DNA of 42,440 nt from a bacterium (GTDB lineage Bacteria > UBP6 > UBA1177 > JAKLFG01). The translations under genes and the position numbers were made by a program. The stretch's first letter is position 1. Every line of letters begins with the position of its first letter. The DNA is taken from the NCBI GenBank assembly GCA_029573155.1, contig JAKQHE010000171.1, positions 1 to 42,440 of the forward strand, given 5' to 3'. The notes beneath the pieces were generated by a model. That model was not told the origin of the DNA. It saw only the letters and a list, made by a program, of their open reading frames with translations, and made no database searches. Positions 3-33,484 of this stretch are shown piece after piece.

Positions 3-1946
3 GTCGGTGACAGCGACACCCCGGTCGGCGACAACGACACTCCGATACTCCCCGATGAAGACTCTCCTGTCAGCGACGACCTGCTCTCCGACAGCGACGA
101 TATCATCATCCCCGATATCGACACCTACTGTGATCCGGTGACGACCTGCAACGATAACGGGACCTGCCAGCCCGATGGCTCCTGCCTCTGCGACGAGGGC
201 TACCAAGGGACCTTCTGCGACGCCTGCGACGACGGCTATGTCGGCTACCCCGACTGTTTCGCGTGCGATCCGGCGGTCGTCTGCACCGGCCACGGCACCT
301 GCAAGAACGACGGTTCCTGCGCCTGCTTCGTCGGCTACGACGGGACCGCCTGTGACGACTGTTCCGACGGCTATGTCGGCTATCCCGACTGCTACTATCA
401 GGCATGCATACCGGGGACCCGCAAGTGCAATGGCCTCGGCACGGTCCAGCAGTGCAACACGCTCGGCACGGCGTGGGAGGATGTAGAGAACTGCGGTAGC
501 GGCTCCGAATGTTTCGAGGGCAACTGCCTCAACGAATGTCAACTGGCCGAGGCGAAGGAGAGTTATGTCGGATGCGAATACTGGGGCGCCTTTCTGCAGA
601 ATGTCTCGCCCGACACCTATGCGGTGGTCGTCGCCAATCCGAACGACACCGCGGTAACGGTGACGGTGTACGGCAACGGTGACCTGCAACTCGCCCAGTT
701 CACCGTCAACGCGGGCGCGCTGAACTCCCAGACCTTCGACACATCGCGGCATCTCACTGGTGTCGGCATATTCAACCATGCCTTCAAGATCGTCGCCTCG
801 CGGCCGGTCACCGTGACCCAGATGAACCCCTTCGGCAATGTGCTGACCTATACGAATGACGCGACCCTGCTTCTTCCCAAAGGGGCGCTCGGTCTCCAGT
901 ACTATGCGATGAGTTGGCCCGATTGGAAATATTACGAAGAGGATGGCTGCGACGAGACCGAATACAACTATCCCGGCTATGTGACCGTGATAGCGACCGA
1001 ACCGGGGACCACTTCGGTGACGGTCAAATACAGTGCGGCATCACGAGCCGGCACCGGCGTCGCGGCGCAGGCGGCCGGAAGCACCGCCACCTATTCGCTC
1101 AACCAATATCAGGTGCTCAACCTCAACTCGGCGGGCCCCGGTTGCGGCGACAGCACCTGCTATGGCGCCGACCTCACCGGCAGTTTCATCGAGGCCGACA
1201 AGAGGGTCGCCGTCTTCGGCGGCCACATGTGCACCTATGTGCCGGCCGGGTCTCCCGCCTGCGACCACCTCGAACACCAGATATTCCCGCTCCGCTCGTG
1301 GGGTATGAACTACGCCGCGGTCCGCACCAAACCACGCGGTTCCGAGGCCGATTACTGGAAGATACTCGCCGCGCAGGACGGCACAAGCGTATCGTGGAGC
1401 GGTGGCGTGACCGGTTCGGTAACCCTCAATGCCGGACAGGCCCACCAACTCTCGACGACCGCCGATTTCGTCGTGACCGCCGACAAACCGATATTGCTCG
1501 CCCAGATACTCGCCTCGCAGGATGCCGGCGCGGGCACCGGGGACCCGGCGCTGATGCTCACCGCGCCGAACGAGCAGTTCCGCAAGGACTACATATTCCT
1601 CGTCGCCCCCAACTACGATTACGACCGGCTCACCATCGTCGCGCAGGCCGATACCAACATCACGCTCGACAGCACCTCGATGAGTTCGAACACCTTCACC
1701 GCGATAGCCGGCACCTCGTGGCTGCGCCAGTATGTCGATACGGCCGACGGCGCCCACAAACTGACCGCCGACAAGCCGGTCGGCCTCTATGTGTACGGCT
1801 TCTCGCAGTATGTCTCCTACGCCTACACCGCCGGACTCGACCTCGTCGAGATATACAGTTGCTGGGATCTCAACAGCAACGGCACCTGCGACATCGCGAC
1901 CGAGGACCTGTCGGGCGACGGCGTCTGCAACGAACGCGACTGCTGA
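3..1946 (+). CDS. 5'-truncated surface protein with EGF-like repeats and an IgGFc-binding-like domain
   Basis: The frame is open from the first bases of the window, so the start (and probably a lipoprotein signal) lies upstream; 647 residues are visible. Seen: an Asp/Pro/Thr-rich linker (GDSDTP, GDNDTP units) over residues 1-42, then two EGF-like Cys modules (residues about 43-130) with a repeated GYVGYPDC element, then a short C-x-GLGTVQQC module. From about residue 180 to 615 the protein is rich in Thr/Val/Gly beta structure and resembles the IgGFc-binding N-terminal family (NPNDTAVTVTVYG, ASRPVTVTQMNPFG). It ends in a 28-residue Cys/Asp tail (CWDLNSNGTCD...CNERDC) shared with the next two genes. 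Known: such domains occur in secreted deltaproteobacterial proteins, mostly of unknown role. Inference: a cell-surface binding or adhesion protein. The GTG at 138 lies inside the frame and is not the real start. Confidence 0.85.
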   Translation, partial: VGDSDTPVGDNDTPILPDEDSPVSDDLLSDSDDIIIPDIDTYCDPVTTCNDNGTCQPDGSCLCDEGYQGTFCDACDDGYVGYPDCFACDPAVVCTGHGTCKNDGSCACFVGYDGTACDDCSDGYVGYPDCYYQACIPGTRKCNGLGTVQQCNTLGTAWEDVENCGSGSECFEGNCLNECQLAEAKESYVGCEYWGAFLQNVSPDTYAVVVANPNDTAVTVTVYGNGDLQLAQFTVNAGALNSQTFDTSRHLTGVGIFNHAFKIVASRPVTVTQMNPFGNVLTYTNDATLLLPKGALGLQYYAMSWPDWKYYEEDGCDETEYNYPGYVTVIATEPGTTSVTVKYSAASRAGTGVAAQAAGSTATYSLNQYQVLNLNSAGPGCGDSTCYGADLTGSFIEADKRVAVFGGHMCTYVPAGSPACDHLEHQIFPLRSWGMNYAAVRTKPRGSEADYWKILAAQDGTSVSWSGGVTGSVTLNAGQAHQLSTTADFVVTADKPILLAQILASQDAGAGTGDPALMLTAPNEQFRKDYIFLVAPNYDYDRLTIVAQADTNITLDSTSMSSNTFTAIAGTSWLRQYVDTADGAHKLTADKPVGLYVYGFSQYVSYAYTAGLDLVEIYSCWDLNSNGTCDIATEDLSGDGVCNERDC

Positions 1947-1981
1947 TCCCCCCACTTATTGTTGTCCCCCCATATTTTCGT

Positions 1982-2010
1982 TTGACTTTCCCCTTTTCTT
2001 CACCTATAAT
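1982..2010 (+). promoter_or_regulatory. sigma70-type promoter for the paired MopE-like lipoproteins
   Basis: TTGACT (1982-1987), a 17-nt spacer and TATAAT (2005-2010) form a near-perfect housekeeping promoter. Transcription would start near 2017, about 38 nt before the ATG at 2055. It probably serves both 2055-4097 and 4129-6075, which are 31 nt apart. Confidence 0.8.
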
Positions 2011-2054
2011 CGCCGCGTCGGTTCGATTTAACCATGTGTAAGGGGGCAAAACCC

Positions 2055-4097
2055 ATGAAAACGATCATCTTTCCGGTCGCGGCGCTGAGTCTGTTCTTTT
2101 TCGCCTGTTCTTCCGATGTGGCGAAGATACTGAACGACGACCTTCTCATAGGCGACGGCGTGAATATCCCCGATGATAACGGGAACGACGGGATCACCAA
2201 AGATGATGGCCCGCTGGTCAACGATGACGGCCAGTTGATAAACGACGACGGTCAGGTCATCAATGACGACGGTCAGGTCATCAATGACGACGGTCAGGTC
2301 ATCAACGATGACGGCCAGATCATCAACGACGACGGCCAGATCATCAACGATGACGGCGAGGTCGTCACGGATGACGGTGGTGAAATATCCGACGAGGAAC
2401 TGAATGACGGGTTCTGGCCCGACGAAGAGAACCCCGATAACACCACCCCCGATGACACCACCCCCGACAACGAGACACCCGACGAAGACCTCCCTCAGAT
2501 ATGCACCCCGCTGGAGACAGTTGACTGTCCCTATTCCGGCGATACGAACAAGATCGGCGTGGGTCCTTGCAAGGTCGGGACGAAGCAGTGCAATCTTGAC
2601 GGCACCGACTGGAGCGACTGTTCCGGCGAGGTTCTCCCGGAAGCGACCGACCCCTGCACCGACAGCGTGGATAACGACTGCAACGGCACGGTCAACGATG
2701 GCTACGATGACGGCGCCACCGGCTGCGCCTGTTTGCCGGGCACCCCCACCTCGTGCTACACCGGACCGGTCGGCACGCTCGATGTGGGCATCTGTCATGC
2801 GGGCACCATGACCTGCAATGTCTTGGGGACCGGTTACGGCACCTGCATCAACGAACAGACCCCCCTTGCTACCGACATCTGCGGGAACGGGCTCAACGAC
2901 GACTGCGACGCCGAGACCGACGAAAGTATAGACGCCGACGGCGACGGCTACGGCACCTGCGGCGGCGACTGCTGCGACAACACCAACCGATGCGCCGACC
3001 CGGCGAAGGTCAATCCCGGCGCGGTAGAGGTCGTGGACGACACCGTGGACAACAACTGCAACAACCAACTCAACGAAGACCCGCAACCCGCATGCTCGAG
3101 CGCCGCGAAGTTCAGCGGCACCACCGCGACCGACCTCGTGAACGCCATGGACATCTGTCAGGTCGCCGCGAACGGCTCGTGGGGCATCGTCGGCACACCG
3201 ACCATAACCCGCGCCAGCGGCTCGGGGGCCATCGACAACCTGCAGGTCGCGGTGATGACCCAGTTCGGTACCCACGCGTCAAACCTCGCCATCGCGAACG
3301 CCACGATGGCCTCGCTCTCCTCGGGCCGCGCTCGCGACTCGAACGACCCCAACGCCCCCGATTCCGACACTTACCAATATTACACCGGCAATCCGCCCGC
3401 CGATTTCAGCGCCCCCTACGGCGGCGGGGCCAACCTGCCCCAGAGCAATCCCAACTGCGACAACGGCTCAGGCGCCAACGACGCGACGATGCTGACCGTG
3501 CAGGTCAAGGTGCCGACCAACGCCCTTTCCTTGTCCTTCAACTTCCGGTTCTTCTCGCATGAATACTGGGAATACCAGTGCACCACATACAACGATTTCT
3601 TCATCGCGATGCTCTACACCGGCGCGACGGGCATCCCGGCCGACAAGAATATATCGTTCGATTCGAACGGCAGATACATCAGCGTCAACTCCGAGCAGTT
3701 CTTCACGGTCTGCACGAGCAAGGAGGACGGGAGCGGGTGCGGCGGCACCGACTACATCTGTTCAGACGGCCCCGCCGCGCTTGCCGGCACCGGATTCGAC
3801 ATATGGGAAGAGGGCGGCTGCGATGAGGACGACCATTACAGAGGCGGCGGCACGAAATGGCTTTCGACCGTCGCGCCGGTCGTCCCGGGCGAAACGATAA
3901 CGCTCAAGTTCGTGATATGGGACACCTCCGATCAGGCACTCGACTCGACCGTCATCATCGACAACTTTAAGTGGAGCGCGCAGGGCACGAGCGGTCCTTC
4001 GACCTTCGAGTGCTGGGATCTCAATAAGAACGGCACCTGCGATATCGCCACCGAGGACCAGTCGGGCGATAATGTCTGCAACGAACGCGACTGCTAA
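2055..4097 (+). CDS. Lipoprotein with Asp-rich repeat tether, MopE-like motif and choice-of-anchor-L-like domain
   Basis: 680 aa from the ATG at 2055, chosen because AAGGGGG sits just upstream and a signal peptide with lipobox FFFAC (Cys18) follows; the in-frame ATG at 2034 has neither. Order: seven NDDG-x-x-x heptads (residues 56-104), a Pro/Asp-rich linker to 147, Cys-rich modules (150-285), a MopE/Cu-binding-like motif (DADGDGYG...CCDN...NPGAVEV...DNNCN, 292-340), then a beta-rich domain (about 358-648) with FNFRFFSHEYWEY, YNDFFIAML, NISFDSNG and GETITLKFVIWD, matching what I recall of the choice-of-anchor-L family. The last 28 residues are the shared Cys/Asp tail. It is a tandem paralogue of the next gene. 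Inference: exposed outer-membrane lipoprotein; function unknown, metal or Ca2+ binding plausible. Confidence 0.9.
   Translation: MKTIIFPVAALSLFFFACSSDVAKILNDDLLIGDGVNIPDDNGNDGITKDDGPLVNDDGQLINDDGQVINDDGQVINDDGQVINDDGQIINDDGQIINDDGEVVTDDGGEISDEELNDGFWPDEENPDNTTPDDTTPDNETPDEDLPQICTPLETVDCPYSGDTNKIGVGPCKVGTKQCNLDGTDWSDCSGEVLPEATDPCTDSVDNDCNGTVNDGYDDGATGCACLPGTPTSCYTGPVGTLDVGICHAGTMTCNVLGTGYGTCINEQTPLATDICGNGLNDDCDAETDESIDADGDGYGTCGGDCCDNTNRCADPAKVNPGAVEVVDDTVDNNCNNQLNEDPQPACSSAAKFSGTTATDLVNAMDICQVAANGSWGIVGTPTITRASGSGAIDNLQVAVMTQFGTHASNLAIANATMASLSSGRARDSNDPNAPDSDTYQYYTGNPPADFSAPYGGGANLPQSNPNCDNGSGANDATMLTVQVKVPTNALSLSFNFRFFSHEYWEYQCTTYNDFFIAMLYTGATGIPADKNISFDSNGRYISVNSEQFFTVCTSKEDGSGCGGTDYICSDGPAALAGTGFDIWEEGGCDEDDHYRGGGTKWLSTVAPVVPGETITLKFVIWDTSDQALDSTVIIDNFKWSAQGTSGPSTFECWDLNKNGTCDIATEDQSGDNVCNERDC
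2220..2366 (+). repeat. 21-bp in-frame tandem repeat (seven units) in the lipoprotein tether
   Basis: Seven consecutive 21-bp units encode the heptad N-D-D-G-(Q/E)-x-x. A degenerate eighth (TDDGGEI) runs to 2387. The middle units are nearly identical at DNA level. The unit length is a multiple of 3, so gain or loss of units changes tether length without a frameshift. The paralogue at 4129 lacks this repeat. Confidence 0.9.
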
Positions 4098-4128
4098 GAA
4101 AGATATCTCAACAGAAAGGGGGTGATGC

Positions 4129-6075
4129 ATGACCCGCATCCTGTACCTGCTTGCGGCAGGAGTGATCCTTTTCGTACTCGCCTGCTCCGAGGTGAAAAGC
4201 ACGCCGAACGACGAGGAGGGCGATGACGGCGACGGCATCGTAACGGTCGATACCGACCAAAAGGCCCTTCCCGACACCGTGACCGACACGAAACCCGACG
4301 GCGACACGATCCCGATCGACGGCGACGCTCCGGTCGTCGACGATAACACCCCTATCACCGACGGCGACACCCCGCCCGTCGAGAACGACACCCCGGTCGA
4401 CGACGGCGACGGCATACTCAACGACGAGGATCCCGACGAGATCGATGTCGAGTGGCCCGATACCGATTCCGACACCGTGATATGCACCGCCAACGAGGAG
4501 GTCGCCTGCCCCTATTCCGGCGACCCGCTGACCGAGAATGTCGGCCTCTGCAAGGCGGGCAAAAAGAAATGCTCGCCCGACGGCACCGCATGGAGCACCT
4601 GTTCCGGCGAGGTGCTTCCCGCGGAGAACGACCCCTGCAACGACCTCGACGACAACGACTGTAACGGCACGGTCAACGACGGCTACGCGGACGGCGCCAC
4701 CGGCTGTATCTGTACGCCGAAGGAAGAGACGGCCTGCTACACCGGCCCCACGGGGACCGAAGGCGTCGGCATCTGCCACGCCGGGATCAGCACCTGCAAC
4801 GACTACGGGAACGCGTGGAGTTCCTGTACCGACGAACAGACCCCCGTCACCGAGATATGCGGCAACACCCTCAATGACGACTGCGTCGGCGACGCCGATG
4901 ACGGGCTCGACGAAGATCTCGACGGCTGGACCGTTTGCGAGAACGACTGTTGCGATAGGACCACCCAGTGCGAGAACCCGGCGGTCGTCAATCCCGGCGC
5001 GGTCGAGGTCACGGGCGATACCATCGACAACGACTGTAACGACCAGACCGACGAGGTTCCGACCGGCTGCAGCACGGTGGCGAAGTTCAGCGGCACAACG
5101 GCCCTTGACCTCGTGAACGCGATGGACATCTGCACCACGGCGCTGAACGGCTCGTGGGGCATCGTCGGGACCCCGACGCTGACCCGCGCCAACGGGGCCG
5201 GCTCAATAGACAATCTCCAGATAGCGGTATCACAGCAATTCGGCACCGACGAATCGAACATCGCCATCTTCCCGCCCCCGCCATCAGCCGGAGTACCCGG
5301 CGGCACCATGGCGGTCCTCTCTTCGGGCCGGGCCCGCGACATGAACGACCCCGATGCCACCGCATTGAAGACCTATCGTTACGAGACCTCAAACCTTAAC
5401 TCGGCCCCTGCCGATTTCACCACGCCGCACGGCGGCCTGCCACAGACGAGCGCCACCTGCCCCGCCGGGACCTACGCGAACGATTCGGTGATGCTCACCC
5501 TGCAACTCAAGGTGCCGACCAACGCCCTCTCCTTCTCGTTCAACTTCCGCTTCTTCTCGCAGGAATACTGGAAATGGACCTGCGACACCGATGGCTACAA
5601 CGACTTCTTCATCGCGATGCTTTACACCGGCGCGGCGGGCATTCCGGCCGACAAGAACATATCGTTCGACCAGAACAGCAGTTACATCAGCGTCAACTCG
5701 AGTGCCTTCTTCACCGTCTGCGAGGCGAAGAGCGGCTATACCTGTCCCGATGGTGCCTCCGCTCTTGCAGGAACAGGCTATGGAGAAAAGTATTATTATG
5801 ATGCTACGAACTACGACATGGGCGGAGGCACCAAGTGGCTCACGACCGCCGCGCCGGTCGTGCCGGGAGAGACGATAACGCTCAAGTTCGTGATATGGGA
5901 CACCAACGACCGCGATCGCGATTCGTTGGTCATCATCGACAACTTCAAATGGAGCGCGCAGGGAACGAGCGGTCCCTCCACCTTCGAGTGCTGGGACCTC
6001 AACCAGAACGGCAATTGCGATATCGCGACCGAGGACAAGTCGGGCGACGAGACCTGCAACGAGCGCGACTGCTGA
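4129..6075 (+). CDS. Lipoprotein, tandem paralogue with MopE-like motif and choice-of-anchor-L-like domain
   Basis: 648 aa from ATG 4129, preceded by a strong ribosome site (AAAGGGGGTGAT, 4115-4126). The signal peptide ends in lipobox FVLAC (Cys19). The tether (residues about 30-120) is Asp/Pro/Thr-rich (PDGDT, ITDGDTPP) and unlike the heptads of the preceding gene. From residue about 125 on, the proteins align module by module: Cys-rich segments, a MopE-like motif (DEDLDGW...NPGAVEV...DNDCND), the beta-rich domain (FNFRFFSQEYWKW, YNDFFIAML, NISFDQN, GETITLKFVIWD) and the same Cys/Asp tail at 621-648. The 31-nt gap to the upstream gene indicates an operon and a duplication origin. Inference: exported to the cell surface; ligand unknown. 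Confidence 0.9.
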   Translation: MTRILYLLAAGVILFVLACSEVKSTPNDEEGDDGDGIVTVDTDQKALPDTVTDTKPDGDTIPIDGDAPVVDDNTPITDGDTPPVENDTPVDDGDGILNDEDPDEIDVEWPDTDSDTVICTANEEVACPYSGDPLTENVGLCKAGKKKCSPDGTAWSTCSGEVLPAENDPCNDLDDNDCNGTVNDGYADGATGCICTPKEETACYTGPTGTEGVGICHAGISTCNDYGNAWSSCTDEQTPVTEICGNTLNDDCVGDADDGLDEDLDGWTVCENDCCDRTTQCENPAVVNPGAVEVTGDTIDNDCNDQTDEVPTGCSTVAKFSGTTALDLVNAMDICTTALNGSWGIVGTPTLTRANGAGSIDNLQIAVSQQFGTDESNIAIFPPPPSAGVPGGTMAVLSSGRARDMNDPDATALKTYRYETSNLNSAPADFTTPHGGLPQTSATCPAGTYANDSVMLTLQLKVPTNALSFSFNFRFFSQEYWKWTCDTDGYNDFFIAMLYTGAAGIPADKNISFDQNSSYISVNSSAFFTVCEAKSGYTCPDGASALAGTGYGEKYYYDATNYDMGGGTKWLTTAAPVVPGETITLKFVIWDTNDRDRDSLVIIDNFKWSAQGTSGPSTFECWDLNQNGNCDIATEDKSGDETCNERDC

Positions 6076-6151: not shown

Positions 6152-9100
6152 ATGCGCGTCCCTATCGTCACCGTTATCGCGCTTTTTTTCCTTCTGCTCG
6201 TCGTCGCCTGCGACAAGAGCGCCACGCAAGGTCCCTGCGACGGGATAGACTGCTCCGGCCACGGCACCTGCGATGCGACGAGCGGACGCGCCGTCTGCAT
6301 CTGCGACGAGAACTATCACCCGAACGGTCTCCTTGAGTGCATCGCCGACACCGATCCGTGCGAGGGGGTCGATTGCGACGAGTGGGAGAGCTGCGTGAAC
6401 GGCTCCTGCGACCCGCTCCCGGGGAAATGCAACGACAAGGACGACTGTGGGCCGAACGAGGCGTGCGAGGACCATACCTGCGTCTACCACGATCCCTGCG
6501 AGGGGATCGACTGTTCGGGCCACGGCGAGTGCACAAGCGGCTACGGCTACGGTGACGAGGTGTTCTGCGACTGCGATGAGAACTATCACGCGGTCGGGCT
6601 GGAATGTCTGCCCGGCGAGACGCCTGACGATGATCAACTGATCCCCGACGGCGACACGGTGACCGACCCCTGCGCAACGGTCACCTGCGATGAATGGAAG
6701 GAATGTTCCGGCGGTGACTGCATCCTGAAAGAGGGTCGCTGTGAAAAGAGCGATGACTGCGGCGAGGACGAGATATGCGACACGGCTGCCCACGACTGCA
6801 TCGCCGACCCCTGTCTGGCGGTGACCTGCGGTAACGGCGGCGTCTGTTCGACGAGCGGTGTGACGCCGCTGTGCAACTGCCCCGACGGCTTCATGGCGAC
6901 CGGGCTTACCTGCATCGCCGACACCGGGACGAAGATCGACTGGTGCAATGTGCAGTGGCCCCCCGCCATCGAGGCGACGGTGGGCGACGCGCCGACCCGT
7001 ACCTACAGTCAACTCTACATCGGCGGCATCACCGACGGCGGCAAGCCGCAGAACGCCGGCGTGAGCGCGCAACTGGGCTACGGCGTAAAGACGCTCACCT
7101 ACCCCATCATCCAGACCGACCTCGTATGGGTCGATGCCGATTTCAATATCACCGGCGCGGGCGATTTCGGGAACAATCACGAATACATGACCGACTTCCC
7201 GACCGCGAAGACCGGGCTGTTCAACTATATCTATCGCTACTCTCTGAATGAGGGGGCGAGTTGGTACTATTGCGACCTGAACGGCAGGATAACCTCCGGT
7301 GCGATAACGCCCGGCATCGCGACGATATCGGGCGGCGGCGATGACTGCGGCGGCGTCTCGTGCGCCGAGTGGGAATCGTGCGCCATCGATCTCTGCGAAC
7401 CGCTTCCGGGCCGCTGTAACATGAAGGCCGATTGCGAGAGCGACGAAGAGTGCGACCTCGGCACCCACTACTGCGTCAATGCGGCGGGAGTGCTCCTCCT
7501 CGACGGCGCGGTCGTGCAGGGAAGCGACGCCTACACCTTCACCGTCCGCTATGTCGGCACCGACGAACTCGATCTCGCGCAGAGCGTCGTGACGCTGAAC
7601 GGCGTCGATATCACCGCGACGCTCACCTACGATCCGACCGCGAACACCGTCACGATATCGGAAAGCGGTATCGCGCAGAAGGGGAAATACACCTATCTAT
7701 TCCGCGCCAAAAACAGCAAGGGGGCGCCGATAGAGCCGCTCTATGTGCCGCTCTGGGTCGAGACGACGCCGTTCGACTGGCGCGACGCCTTTCTCTACCA
7801 GATCATGAACGACCGGTTCCTGAACGGTGACGCGCTGAACGATCAGCCGATCGCCGGGGTCGACGCGATCCGCAACTGGATGGGCGGTGATTGGGCCGGC
7901 ATCATCGAGAAACTGGATGGCGACTACTTCACCGACCTCGGGGTGAACGCGCTCTGGATATCCTCGCCGGTCAAGAACACCGCGAAGTCGGGTAAAGGGA
8001 TGAACGACAACTATCAGTACGCGGCCTACCATTCCTACTGGCCGATCGCGACCGGTTGGACCGACACCGACCCGCTGTCGGGTCTTTCCTCGCCGCTGGA
8101 GGACCATTTCGGGACCGATGCCGAACTGCGCGAACTGGTGCAGAAGGCGCACGCCAAGGGCATCCGCGTTCTCATCGATCTCGTCGCCAACCATGTCCAC
8201 ACCGACAGCCCGCTGTGGATAGAGCATAAGAACGACGGCTGGTTCAACATGGCGCCCGACGGGAAGACGCCCAATGTGAACGGCGGCTACAACTGCGGCT
8301 GGGACGCCCCGATCGAATGTTGGTTCACCGACTATCTGCCCGACTTCGATTACCGCGACAAGGAACTGCTCGATCTGGTACTCGACCACGCGGTATGGCT
8401 GGTCCACGAATACGACTTCGACGGTTTCCGGATGGACGCGGTCAAACACATGGTGATGGGCTTCACGACCGGCACGCGGAGTCGCATCGAACAGGATATC
8501 GTGACCACCGGCATCCCGTTCTACACCGTCGGCGAGACCTTCGACGGCGACAAGATGAAGATAGCCGAATATGTCGGCGCCGACAAACTCGACGGGCAGT
8601 TCGATTTCCCGCTCTACTTTCAGGTGCGCGACATCCTGCTCCAGCATTCGCGAGGGATGAACGAACTGGCCTCTTTCGTCGCCGCGAACGACACCTACTA
8701 CACCGACCGCTGGAACGGCGCGATCATGTCGAACTTCATGGGCAACCACGATGTGACCCGTGCCCTCACCTTCGCCGGCGGCGACCACGCCCGACTGCGG
8801 ATGGCGCAGACCTTCCTCCTCACCTCGCCCGCCATCCCGCTCATCTATCAGGGCGACGACATCGGCATGGAGGGGGGCGAAGATCCCGACAACCGGCGCA
8901 TGATGGTGTTCGAGCCATCGCTTTCGACCGATCAGCGGGCGACGCTCGCTCACCTGAAGAAACTCGGCATGGCCCGCAAGGCGCATCCGGCGCTCCGCAC
9001 CGGGATCCGCACGACGCTCATCAGTGAAACGAACCTCTGGGCCTACCGGATGAAAAGCGGCGCCGACGAGGCCATCGTGATACTCAACCGCGGGGCACAG

Positions 9101-9232
9101 ACCCAGCGGCAACTCTCCACAACGCTCACCGGCACGCTCACCGACGAGATATCGGGCAACACCGCCGCCGTGTCGGGAGGCAAGATAACGGTCACCGTTC
9201 CGGCGATGACGAGCGCGGTCTATACGAAATGA
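6152..9232 (+). CDS. Surface lipoprotein alpha-amylase (GH13) with N-terminal EGF-like modules
   Basis: 1026 aa; ATG 6152 follows GGAGG. The signal peptide ends in lipobox VVAC (Cys20). Residues 29-255 hold EGF-like Cys modules (CSGHGTC, CDEWESC, CNCPDGF). Residues about 264-395 form a WCNVQWP...YCDLNG module similar to one I recall from myxobacterial secreted proteins, possibly carbohydrate-binding. Another Cys module (399-441) and a beta domain (447-537) follow, then the GH13 barrel from about 541. The four GH13 signatures are intact: DLVANH (676-681), GFRMD with nucleophile Asp762, GETF with acid Glu795, and FMGNHD with Asp867. A C-terminal beta domain closes the protein. Inference: hydrolyses alpha-glucans at the cell surface. 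No maltose transporter is nearby and it lacks the shared Cys/Asp tail. Asp at +2 after the lipid Cys would favour inner-membrane retention by E. coli rules, which may not apply here. Confidence 0.93.
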   Translation: MRVPIVTVIALFFLLLVVACDKSATQGPCDGIDCSGHGTCDATSGRAVCICDENYHPNGLLECIADTDPCEGVDCDEWESCVNGSCDPLPGKCNDKDDCGPNEACEDHTCVYHDPCEGIDCSGHGECTSGYGYGDEVFCDCDENYHAVGLECLPGETPDDDQLIPDGDTVTDPCATVTCDEWKECSGGDCILKEGRCEKSDDCGEDEICDTAAHDCIADPCLAVTCGNGGVCSTSGVTPLCNCPDGFMATGLTCIADTGTKIDWCNVQWPPAIEATVGDAPTRTYSQLYIGGITDGGKPQNAGVSAQLGYGVKTLTYPIIQTDLVWVDADFNITGAGDFGNNHEYMTDFPTAKTGLFNYIYRYSLNEGASWYYCDLNGRITSGAITPGIATISGGGDDCGGVSCAEWESCAIDLCEPLPGRCNMKADCESDEECDLGTHYCVNAAGVLLLDGAVVQGSDAYTFTVRYVGTDELDLAQSVVTLNGVDITATLTYDPTANTVTISESGIAQKGKYTYLFRAKNSKGAPIEPLYVPLWVETTPFDWRDAFLYQIMNDRFLNGDALNDQPIAGVDAIRNWMGGDWAGIIEKLDGDYFTDLGVNALWISSPVKNTAKSGKGMNDNYQYAAYHSYWPIATGWTDTDPLSGLSSPLEDHFGTDAELRELVQKAHAKGIRVLIDLVANHVHTDSPLWIEHKNDGWFNMAPDGKTPNVNGGYNCGWDAPIECWFTDYLPDFDYRDKELLDLVLDHAVWLVHEYDFDGFRMDAVKHMVMGFTTGTRSRIEQDIVTTGIPFYTVGETFDGDKMKIAEYVGADKLDGQFDFPLYFQVRDILLQHSRGMNELASFVAANDTYYTDRWNGAIMSNFMGNHDVTRALTFAGGDHARLRMAQTFLLTSPAIPLIYQGDDIGMEGGEDPDNRRMMVFEPSLSTDQRATLAHLKKLGMARKAHPALRTGIRTTLISETNLWAYRMKSGADEAIVILNRGAQTQRQLSTTLTGTLTDEISGNTAAVSGGKITVTVPAMTSAVYTK

Positions 9233-29897: not shown

Positions 29898-31628
29898 ATG
29901 GACTGGAAAACGGTAGCGTTCGAGGTCTGCGGCGGTCTCGGCCTGTTCCTCATGGGCATGCATATCCTGTCGGAGGGCATGCAGAAGGTCTCGGGCGACC
30001 GTCTCCGCAGGATACTCGGCTTCCTCACACAAAATCGCTTTATGGCGATCTTCGTCGGGCTTTCCATCACTTCGGTCATCCAGTCGAGTTCGGCCACCAC
30101 CGTCATGGCGGTCGGCTTCGTCAACGCGAGCCTGCTGTCGCTCGAACAGGCGATCGGCGTCATCCTCGGCGCCAACATCGGCACCACCATCACCGGCTGG
30201 CTCGTGTCGCTGTCGATAGTACAGTACGCGATGGTCATCATCGCCGCCGGCGTCCTTCTGAAGTTCATCGGGCGAAACGAAACGGTGCGCTACAGCGGCG
30301 AGGCGATATTCGGACTCGGCATCCTGTTCCTCGGGATGAACCTCATGAGCGACGGTCTGGCCCCTCTGCGCGATGACAAGGAGTTCGTTTCCTTCTTCAC
30401 CAAGGTCGACGGCCGCACCTACTCCAGCGTATTCATCGGGGTTCTCATCGGCACGGTGGCGACGGCCCTTGTCCAGTCGAGTTCGGCAACGCTCGGCATC
30501 ATCATCGCGCTGGCCTCACAGGGGCTGCTTTCCTTCCCGGCAGCCATCGCGCTGGTGCTCGGCACCAATATCGGCACCACCGTCACGGCACTGTTAGCGA
30601 GCATCGGGACCAATTACCACGCTAAACGGGCCGCCGCCGCGCATATCTTGTTCAATTTCTTCGGGGTCATCATCGTCCTCATCGTCTTCTACCCCTTCCT
30701 TCGCATGGTCGACCTCTTCCTGCCGGGCGACCCCGACATGGTGATACGGACCGCTGAAGAGGCGGCGAAGTACGGTTTCGGCATCGGCGCCAAGCCACTG
30801 GCCGGCGTCCATATCGCGCTCGCCCATTCGCTGTTCAACATCACCAATGTCGTCATCTTCACCCCGCTCATCGCCTTCCTCGCCTTCGTCGTGAAGAAGA
30901 TAGTTCCTGAACCGAAGGCGAAACTGCCCAAGACGCCGCATCAGTTCGCCCACATCCACTACGGTCTCATCGCGACCCCCGCGCTGGGTATCATAGAGTC
31001 GGAAAAGGAACTCTATGCCATGGCCGAACGGGTCAAGAAGAACTCGAAGCGCATCCGCGATATCCTCGGCGGAAAACGGGAAGCGGGCACAGCGGCCGAG
31101 AAGATAGAGAAGAACGAAGAACTCATCGACGAATACCGCATGGCGATCACCGAGTTCCTCCTGTCGCTGGCGCAACGTTCGCTGTCCCGCGAAGACGCGG
31201 CGAAGGTCGGCAATTACATCACCTGCGCTCACAACCTCGAAAAATACGCCGACTATGTCACCAACATGACCCGCGTTTACCTGAAGATGAAGAGTGACAA
31301 CCTCGTCCTCTCCGATGCAGCGCGCACCTCTCTGCAAGATATCGTAAATGATATCGAGGAGTTCTACGAATCGACCATAGTCCCGTTGAGCGGGGTCGAG
31401 GTTGACGCAAAAAATTTCCTCGCTACGGCAACGATGCGTAAAAAGGAGATAAAGGATCGTATCCGCGCCGCGAAGATGGGCCATTTCCAGCGGCTTCAGG
31501 AAGGAACCTGTAGAGGAGAGGCTTCTATGTCCTATATCGATATCCTCGTCAATGTCGACGGCATGGTCTCGCAGGTCCACAATATCGCCGAAACGCTCAC
31601 GCTCTCCAAATTCTCGGGTATCGCCTGA
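29898..31628 (+). CDS. Na/Pi cotransporter with C-terminal PhoU-like domain (copy 1)
   Basis: 576 aa; ATG 29898 follows GAGGCGGGG. Two inverted Na_Pi_cotrans halves each carry the signature QSSSAT (62-67 and 193-198), each followed by a GxNIGTT loop (GANIGTT, GTNIGTT). About eight to nine membrane helices extend to residue about 345. A helical PhoU-like domain (about 365-565: ESEKELYAMAERVKKNSKRIRDIL, ITCAHNLEKYADYVTNM) fills the C-terminus. Known: such NptA/YjbB-like proteins move phosphate with sodium, inward or outward, and the PhoU part is thought to regulate. The Pho-box-like repeats upstream fit control by phosphate. It forms a tandem pair with the next gene. Confidence 0.92.
   Translation: MDWKTVAFEVCGGLGLFLMGMHILSEGMQKVSGDRLRRILGFLTQNRFMAIFVGLSITSVIQSSSATTVMAVGFVNASLLSLEQAIGVILGANIGTTITGWLVSLSIVQYAMVIIAAGVLLKFIGRNETVRYSGEAIFGLGILFLGMNLMSDGLAPLRDDKEFVSFFTKVDGRTYSSVFIGVLIGTVATALVQSSSATLGIIIALASQGLLSFPAAIALVLGTNIGTTVTALLASIGTNYHAKRAAAAHILFNFFGVIIVLIVFYPFLRMVDLFLPGDPDMVIRTAEEAAKYGFGIGAKPLAGVHIALAHSLFNITNVVIFTPLIAFLAFVVKKIVPEPKAKLPKTPHQFAHIHYGLIATPALGIIESEKELYAMAERVKKNSKRIRDILGGKREAGTAAEKIEKNEELIDEYRMAITEFLLSLAQRSLSREDAAKVGNYITCAHNLEKYADYVTNMTRVYLKMKSDNLVLSDAARTSLQDIVNDIEEFYESTIVPLSGVEVDAKNFLATATMRKKEIKDRIRAAKMGHFQRLQEGTCRGEASMSYIDILVNVDGMVSQVHNIAETLTLSKFSGIA
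30996..31060 (+). repeat. 65-nt segment identical to 32849-32913
   Basis: An exact direct repeat within the PhoU-like part of the tandem phosphate transporters. A second exact repeat of 61 nt pairs 31215-31275 with 33068-33128. Third-position differences are frequent elsewhere between the two genes. Confidence 0.85.
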
Positions 31629-31716: not shown

Positions 31717-31750
31717 CTGACCCTTATCTGACAGAAGAGTGGAGAGACAT

Positions 31751-33484
31751 GTGGACTGGAAAACGATAGCGTTCGAGGTCTTCGGCGGACTTGGTCTGTT
31801 CCTTCTTGGCATGAAGATCATGTCGGAAGGCATGCAGAAGGTCGCGGGCGACCGGCTCCGCAAGGTACTTGGCTTCCTGACACAGAATCGCTTCATGGCG
31901 ATATTGGTCGGCATGACGGTCACGGCGGTCATCCAGTCGAGTTCGGCCACCACCGTCATGACCGTCGGGTTCGTCAACGCGCAACTCATGACCCTCACGC
32001 AGGCGATCGGCGTCATACTCGGCGCCAACATCGGCACCACGGTCACCGGCTGGCTCGTGTCGCTCGCGGTGGTCAAATACGCGATGGTCATCATCGGTAT
32101 CGGCGTCCTGTTGCGCTTCGCCGGTCACAACGAGACTGTTCGCTACAGTGGCGAAGCGATATCGGGACTCGGCCTGCTCTTTCTCGGCATGACCACGATG
32201 AGCGACGGACTCGCCCCTTTGCGCGACAGCCCCGGGTTCGTCCATTTCTTCACCATGGTCGACGGGGTGACCTACCCCAGTATCCTTCTCGGTGTCTTCA
32301 TCGGCACGGTGACCACCGTAGCGGTCCAGTCGAGTTCGGCCACCATCGGTATCGCCATCGCGCTCGCCACGCAGGGCCTGCTCACTTTTCCCGGCGCGGT
32401 CTCACTGATATTGGGCGACAACATCGGCACCACCATCACGGCGCTGTTGGCGAGCATCGGGACCAATCACCACGCCAAACGGGCCGCCTTCGCCCATACG
32501 ATGTTCAATGTGTTCGGCGTTGTCATCATCCTGATCATTTTCTTTCCCTTCGTCGCGCTCGTGAACACCTTCATCCCGCAGGACGCCGATCTGACGATAC
32601 GGACCGCCGAGGAGGCGGCGCGCTACGGCATGGCGATCGGCGCGAAGCCCTTCATCGGGCCCCATGTAGCCATGGCCCACACCATGTTCAATGTCACCAA
32701 CGTCATCTTCTTCACGCCGCTTATCGGCTTCCTCGCCTTTATGGTCAGGAAGATAGTGCCCGAGCCGAAGGCGAAACCGTCAAAGGGGGTCCGCCAGTTC
32801 GTTCATATCCATTACGGGCTGGTCGAAACACCTGCTTTGGGCATCCTTGAGTCGGAAAAGGAACTCTATGCCATGGCCGAACGGGTCAAGAAGAACTCGA
32901 AGCGCATCCGCGACATCCTCGGCGACAAACGCGACGCAGGCGTGGCAGCCGAAAAGATAGAGAAGAACGAGGAACTCATCGACGAATACCGCAAGGCGAT
33001 AACAGAATTCCTGCTCTCGCTCTCCCAACGGTCATTGTCGCGCGAGGATGCCGGGAAGGTCGGCAACTACATCACCTGCGCTCACAACCTCGAAAAATAC
33101 GCCGACTATGTCACCAACATGACCCGCGCCTACCTCAAGATGAAGAGTGACAACCTTATCCTTTCCGACGCGGCGCGCACCTCTCTGTACGATATCGTGA
33201 GCGACATCGAGGAGTTCTACGAAGCGACCATCGTCCCGCTCAGCGGCGTCGAGGTCGACGCGAAGAATTTCCTCGCCACCGCCACGACGCGCAAGAGGGA
33301 GATAAAGGAACGGGTGCGTGCCGCCAAGATGGGACATTTCGAGCGGCTGCAGGCAGGCACCTGCAAGGGAGAGGCCTCGATGGCCTATGTCGATATCCTC
33401 GTCAACATCGACGGCATGGTCTCACAGGTCCACAACATCGCCGAGACGCTCACGCTTTCGAAGTTCTCGGGAACCTCCGCGTAA
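31751..33484 (+). CDS. Na/Pi cotransporter with C-terminal PhoU-like domain (copy 2)
   Basis: 577 aa with GTG 31751 as start: the codon aligns with the ATG of copy 1 (both continue D-W-K-T) and GGAGAG is at 31741-31746. The GTG at 31739 would make the ribosome site coding. It has the same two QSSSAT signatures and GxNIGTT loops, and a PhoU-like tail almost identical in sequence to copy 1, with two DNA stretches of 65 and 61 nt fully identical. The membrane half is more diverged. It has its own Pho-box-like operator, so the copies can be expressed separately. Converges on sppA with an 8-nt gap. Confidence 0.92.
   Translation: MDWKTIAFEVFGGLGLFLLGMKIMSEGMQKVAGDRLRKVLGFLTQNRFMAILVGMTVTAVIQSSSATTVMTVGFVNAQLMTLTQAIGVILGANIGTTVTGWLVSLAVVKYAMVIIGIGVLLRFAGHNETVRYSGEAISGLGLLFLGMTTMSDGLAPLRDSPGFVHFFTMVDGVTYPSILLGVFIGTVTTVAVQSSSATIGIAIALATQGLLTFPGAVSLILGDNIGTTITALLASIGTNHHAKRAAFAHTMFNVFGVVIILIIFFPFVALVNTFIPQDADLTIRTAEEAARYGMAIGAKPFIGPHVAMAHTMFNVTNVIFFTPLIGFLAFMVRKIVPEPKAKPSKGVRQFVHIHYGLVETPALGILESEKELYAMAERVKKNSKRIRDILGDKRDAGVAAEKIEKNEELIDEYRKAITEFLLSLSQRSLSREDAGKVGNYITCAHNLEKYADYVTNMTRAYLKMKSDNLILSDAARTSLYDIVSDIEEFYEATIVPLSGVEVDAKNFLATATTRKREIKERVRAAKMGHFERLQAGTCKGEASMAYVDILVNIDGMVSQVHNIAETLTLSKFSGTSA

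Follow-up and report, generated by a model that had tools for sequence, protein, structure and literature searches.

The described systems closest in form to the protein tail reported here are small Ca2+-loop modules and C-terminal sorting signals. Dockerin type I (PF00404) has two D-x-N-x-D/N-G Ca2+ loops and is often C-terminal in extracellular proteins, thrombospondin type 3 (TSP3) repeats (PF18884) carry Asp-rich Ca2+ loops and disulfides in tandem arrays of extracellular proteins, the Notch/LNR repeat (PF00066) is a small module held by Ca2+ and disulfides, and the EF-hand loop (PF00036, PF13202) has a regular D-x-N-x-D-G-x-x-D-x-x-E form. PEP-CTERM, LPXTG and type IX secretion system (T9SS) C-terminal domain (CTD) signals are short conserved tails common to unrelated exported bodies, and choice-of-anchor proteins, as their NCBIfam naming reflects, often have a sorting signal at this end. 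We analyzed a stretch of 42,440 nucleotides (the window; contig JAKQHE010000171.1 of assembly GCA_029573155.1, C128 in our numbering) from a bacterium of the phylum UBP6, in which three consecutive genes end in one and the same 28-residue Cys/Asp tail. The assembly is a metagenome-assembled genome (MAG) of 2.69 Mb in 288 contigs, and all genomes compared with it are also MAGs and incomplete. Our favored reading, to which we give a probability of roughly 60%, is that the tail is a mobile structural bead, held by Ca2+ and disulfides, that here caps and stabilizes the free C-terminus of surface lipoproteins.

The tail consensus CWDxNxNGxCDxxxEDxxxDxxCxExDC forms the exact end of three consecutive plus-strand open reading frames (ORFs; stops 1946, 4097 and 6075), and translation of the window shows the stop codon directly after each copy, as an earlier note on this DNA had claimed; only the start given there for the first copy (1863) lies one codon too far downstream, as that copy's first Cys is at 1860. 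Pairwise identity among the three tails is 25/28, 23/28 and 23/28, which is far beyond chance. The bodies are of the two types named in the earlier note. Specifically, the first ORF matches the IgGFc_binding profile PF17517 with E = 1e-79 (268.3 bits relative to a gathering score of 25.6), and the second and third match choice_anch_L NF038133 with E = 2e-14 and 2e-13 (53.4 and 50.3 bits relative to a curated cut-off of 27). A relative of the window IgGFc protein in genome G001 has an N-terminal lipobox, LLGAC. In the tailed lipoproteins the lipobox is joined to the body by long acidic tandem linkers, (NDDGQ)n-like or GDT/D-rich (window 2205-2375 and 4240-4440), and GDTGDT runs resembling them also occur in the relatives G015 and G022. 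Coordinates are collected in Table 1.

Table 1. Tailed genes of the window and their C-terminal module copies
Feature	Position	Strand	Details
IgGFc_binding-type surface protein	3..1946	+	5' end cut by window/contig edge; EGF-like repeats, IgGFc body 858-1799, 28-residue tail
C-terminal module copy 1	1860..1943	+	CWDLNSNGTCDIATEDLSGDGVCNERDC, then stop; from translation
Choice-of-anchor-L lipoprotein	2034..4097	+	Lipobox Cys 2106-2108, acidic (NDDGQ)n linker, MopE-type motifs, choice_anch_L body 3312-3962, tail
C-terminal module copy 2	4011..4094	+	CWDLNKNGTCDIATEDQSGDNVCNERDC, then stop; from translation
Choice-of-anchor-L lipoprotein	4129..6075	+	Lipobox Cys 4183-4185, acidic linker, MopE-type motif, choice_anch_L body 5314-5940, tail
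C-terminal module copy 3	5989..6072	+	CWDLNQNGNCDIATEDKSGDETCNERDC, then stop; from translation; AlphaFold2 mean pLDDT about 88-91 over 28 residues

Copies of the module from the ends and from the interior of proteins align over all 28 positions, with W2, D3, E15, D16 and D27 invariant in 96 copies. Of 101 copies, 98 have Cys1 together with Cys28 and three (AWD...DDA) have neither, with no mixed case; Cys10 and Cys23 occur together in 84 copies, are jointly missing from 15 and are mixed in two, so that this pair is kept or lost together in 99/101. Fisher tests that ignore the relatedness of these non-independent copies give 6e-6 for C1/C28 and 5e-16 for C10/C23, and no association is seen for the cross pairs C1/C10 and C23/C28. 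The genome-wide search pattern itself demanded Cys10, Cys23 and Cys28; on viral contigs, a pattern with no demanded Cys returned the same eight stretches as the pattern demanding Cys28, and those copies have both outer Cys. The Cys co-variation therefore predicts nested disulfides around two EF-hand-like loops, with C1-C28 closing the module and C10-C23 inside it. The first loop reads D3-x-N5-x-N7-G-x-x-D11...E15/D16 and the second D16-x-S/N-x-D20-x-x-x-N/D24-x-x-D27. The pattern D-x-[DN]-x-[DN]-G-x-x-D with an acidic residue near position 12, which defines an EF-hand-like loop, is found in the first loop of a 27-residue variant of the module, and the second loop, D16...D27, is EF-hand-like in both lengths (27 and 28). 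The reading of the tail as D-x-N-x-N-G-x-x-D and D-x-S-x-D-x-x-x-N-x-x-D Ca2+ loops, already made in the earlier note, fits the sequence, and the module probably binds Ca2+. AlphaFold2 models the tail with a pLDDT of 88-91 over its 28 residues and no helix longer than three residues, and a body+tail model is most confident in the tail (80/80/70 relative to a mean pLDDT of 47). Foldseek returned no match at E <= 0.001 for that body+tail model (best 0.058), in which the body is too poorly modeled, at this mean pLDDT of 47, for the result to carry weight, and none for the tail alone, a 40-residue query being uninformative.

The module differs from each of the described systems. The weak Pfam matches of its members go to Ca2+-loop families, the best E-values among 96 copies being 5e-5 for EF-hand, 0.0026 for dockerin and 0.0074 for LNR. 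Dockerin PF00404 is the best weak sequence neighbor in the Protein Data Bank (PDB) and Pfam, and 20/96 members match it weakly; the window tail has no match to it. A dockerin has about 60-70 residues with loop-helix (F-hand) repeats, whereas the module has 27-28 residues, back-to-back loops, four Cys and no predicted helix above three residues; on its length, the helices and the lack of cohesin in 28 incomplete genomes we reject dockerin membership. Relative to TSP3 repeats the Cys spacing is different and the D-N-C-P-x-x-x-N-x-x-Q signature is missing, and the TSP3_bac profile matches only 1/96 members (E = 0.042), too little for TSP3 membership. EF-hand_1 matches 19/96 members and the 27-residue variant has the regular EF-hand loop, but the module has no flanking helices, is predicted to be clamped by disulfides and is extracellular. 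LNR gives a weak match in 24/96 members, but it has six Cys (three disulfides) in about 35 residues where the module has four or two Cys in 27-28, so that the module is not an LNR repeat. Nor is it a T9SS C-terminal domain (Por_Secre_tail type), which has about 75 residues. The tail itself has no significant match in Pfam, NCBIfam or PHROGs, no Pfam, NCBIfam or PDB entry names the module, tblastn with the motif consensus found no match in phages and plasmids, and literature searches on the motif, on choice-of-anchor L with IgGFc and on related modules yielded nothing on it.

A search with the tail revealed six terminal copies in the genome that holds the window: the three described above, two further choice_anch_L proteins (contigs C13 and C242) and one IgGFc_binding protein (C21). 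Internal copies of the motif are also common there, and include 27-residue relatives such as CWDLNGDGIEDIFEDVNSDLAWNALDC, which are flanked by Gly-x-y repeats in collagen-like proteins (C40 and C146). Genomes G000-G003, G014, G015 and G022 have terminal tails (0-2 residues before the stop), and nearly every genome of the order has internal copies, in collagen-like proteins, a 5'-nucleotidase and a protein of ~1616 residues. In the 5'-nucleotidase, which has roughly 690-790 residues (PF02872 + PF00149), an array of modules interrupts the metallophosphatase domain behind its first strand. This lipoprotein with its CWD-type array (L108:3202-5556 on the minus strand, L229, L230, L232, L233 and L234) is present in most genomes of the order, and a site just past the first strand (HTTDTHG/HTTDSHS) is an unusual one for an insertion. 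The ~1616-residue protein resembles a papain-type peptidase in its N-terminal part when judged by eye. A protein of 1618 residues (L051:660-5516, plus strand) has a papain-like N-terminal region and carries CWD modules plus ordinary TSP3-type repeats as a separate block; because both occur side by side, the two are distinct.

A scan of 84,980 species across GTDB with one strict four-Cys pattern gave 48 copies in 43 contig stretches. Fourteen are terminal (0-2 residues from the stop; 13 in UBP6 genomes and one in a Bacteroidota MAG), two are near-terminal (6 and 11 residues from the stop, Bacteroidota) and 32 are internal, in collagen stalks, multihaem cytochromes and 5'-nucleotidases. Outside UBP6 the main internal hosts are collagen-like proteins from Deltaproteobacteria, Nitrospirota, Planctomycetota and other groups, and the Bacteroidota proteins carry the module at the C-terminus behind a different beta-rich body. 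Several hosts (L087, L094, L095 and L103) are ordered as collagen stalk, module and multihaem cytochrome. These four are deltaproteobacterial lipoproteins with a collagen-like stalk, one or more CWD modules and a multihaem cytochrome domain, and are possibly stalked extracellular electron-transfer proteins. The module is thus a widespread unnamed building block that elsewhere is found mostly inside proteins. Terminal position, which the earlier note took as characteristic, holds for the two tailed families of this lineage but not for the module as such, and the mainly internal position that had been set beforehand as evidence against a terminal tag is largely what is seen outside these two families (32/48).

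We also compared tailed and tail-less bodies. Choice_anch_L and IgGFc_binding genes were sought in 27 relatives, most C-termini could be read, and the counts that follow are of full-length bodies; these body searches also recovered tails that have N-D or N-T where others have N-G. The tail is present on 15/70 choice_anch_L bodies and 5/40 IgGFc bodies. In the remainder (55/70 and 35/40) the protein stops 2-12 residues past the body, indicating that the bodies are complete without it. In quick maximum-likelihood trees, built from the bodies alone and without bootstrap, the tailed choice_anch_L proteins form one clade (SH-aLRT 100) that spans two families of the order, and the tailed IgGFc proteins form one clade (94, not starred) that does not extend beyond the window's own family and sits within tail-less IgGFc proteins. 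Every member found of both clades has the tail strictly at its end, 0-2 residues before the stop. The simplest history suggested by these trees would be an old tail on choice_anch_L that was later recruited by IgGFc. Two proteins, G000:C13 and G001:C67, have gained a flexible acidic linker between body and tail, about 34 residues long, which indicates that the tail is a separate module.

Tailed and tail-less proteins of both families have a lipoprotein signal at the N-terminus, and an anchor is therefore already present. Scored by a simple rule, a lipobox was found in 49/53 and 29/33 tail-less proteins of the two families and in 6/15 and 3/4 tailed ones, with two more (L040 and L053) recognized by eye; most of the remaining tailed proteins have no readable N-terminus, as the stretch or contig is cut. 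The tail is at the far end from the lipobox, beyond long acidic linkers and the body. The tails have no transmembrane (TM) segment, basic end or LPXTG-like motif. Among the 28 genomes, the window's own included and all incomplete, none has exosortase (PF09721) or a sortase (PF04203) above the family cut-off; Por_Secre_tail (PF18962) is absent from all tail-bearing genomes and was found only in the distant G026, a genome that lacks the motif. G026 belongs to the same phylum, and its 14 T9SS-type C-terminal sorting domains have no counterpart in the window's order. Cohesin (PF00963) was likewise found in 0/28 genomes, which is weak evidence given that the MAGs are incomplete.

The favored reading draws directly on the observed sequence and position of the tail, its presence on two body families, the tailed clades beside tail-less paralogues, the Cys co-variation and the lipoboxes. 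A module of 27-28 residues would consist of two EF-hand-like Ca2+ loops set back to back, closed by C1-C28 and braced by C10-C23, and would fold on its own given Ca2+ and oxidizing conditions. Inside proteins such a bead would join or interrupt collagen-like stalks, sit at junctions of stalk and domain, or be inserted into enzyme domains. In the two families of presumably surface-exposed lipoproteins its addition to the free C-terminus, away from the membrane, would have given that end a rigid cap that resists proteases. Two points weigh against this reading. The first is that Ca2+ binding and the disulfides, as well as surface exposure and the capping role, are what we infer from the sequences. 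The second is the likeness of neighboring tails. The window IgGFc tail shares 25/28 and 23/28 residues with the adjacent choice_anch_L tails but 18/28 with the genome's second IgGFc tail, although the two tailed IgGFc bodies are 72% identical and sisters in the tree. Near-identical tails on adjacent genes of two families would be odd if the module only stabilizes, and suggest exchange between neighbors (gene conversion), a shared constraint or a shared partner.

A shared partner is the core of the main rival, which we regard as unlikely: the tail would be a docking tag bound by another surface protein, by the same module on a neighbor or by a matrix component, and the IgGFc and choice-of-anchor-L lipoproteins of one cluster would assemble together as dockerin does with cohesin. 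Its best argument is these homogenized tails on adjacent unrelated bodies, to which the strictly terminal position in both clades and the distant likeness to dockerin loops can be added. The IgGFc and choice_anch_L cluster is also kept in G000, G001 and G002 while its flanking genes differ in G002, although that same difference means that no dedicated partner gene is evident. Against docking, the motif is internal in many unrelated proteins, tail-less paralogues are the majority for both bodies, cohesin was not found in the 28 related genomes, and the module has half a dockerin's length and lacks the dockerin helices. A particular form of it is improbable, namely that the tail is a minimal docking module, locked by disulfides and half as large as a dockerin, which would gather different surface lipoproteins of this uncultured phylum via a receptor, with the same fold acting in other bacteria as a joint of collagen-like stalks.

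Quite improbable is that the tails are passengers of duplication, alike only through recent tandem duplication and recombination of a module that has no specific role. The two choice_anch_L genes are indeed paralogues and the tails of the cluster look homogenized, but all 15 full-length members of the deep choice_anch_L clade, across two families, retain the tail with invariant Cys and acidic positions, an unrelated body carries it as well, and Bacteroidota proteins also have the module at their C-terminus or close to it. Finally, a sorting, secretion or covalent anchoring signal, in which the C-terminus would be read and possibly cleaved by a transpeptidase or secretion machine, is very improbable, since its fitting position just before the stop, where choice-of-anchor proteins often place such signals, is outweighed by the N-terminal lipoboxes, the lack of a TM segment, basic end or LPXTG-like motif, the negative searches for matching machinery in the tail-bearing genomes, and equivalent internal modules that are followed by large domains; on these observations we reject a dedicated sorting or anchoring tag as the main reading, and what stands of the earlier proposal is a discrete Ca2+-loop module on two unrelated bodies, terminal in all members found of both tailed clades.

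Two other features of the window are recorded here. Directly downstream of the tailed cluster lies a gene for a secreted alpha-amylase lipoprotein with EGF-like repeats (6152-9232, plus strand), which is also beside the cluster in G001 (74% identity) and was not found in the 10 kb stretch of G002. Further along, two consecutive Na/Pi-cotransporter + PhoU genes (29898-31628 and 31739-33484, plus strand) appear to be a tandem duplication.

None of the family libraries searched lists the module, yet it recurs in UBP6, Deltaproteobacteria, Planctomycetota, Nitrospirota, Bacteroidota and IMG/VR contigs, where its hosts are collagen-like stalks, multihaem cytochromes, nucleotidases and surface lipoproteins. 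With its small size and predicted nested disulfides it would be a compact Ca2+/disulfide scaffold that is directly testable as a synthetic peptide, and naming it would make it possible to parse many extracellular proteins that lack annotation.

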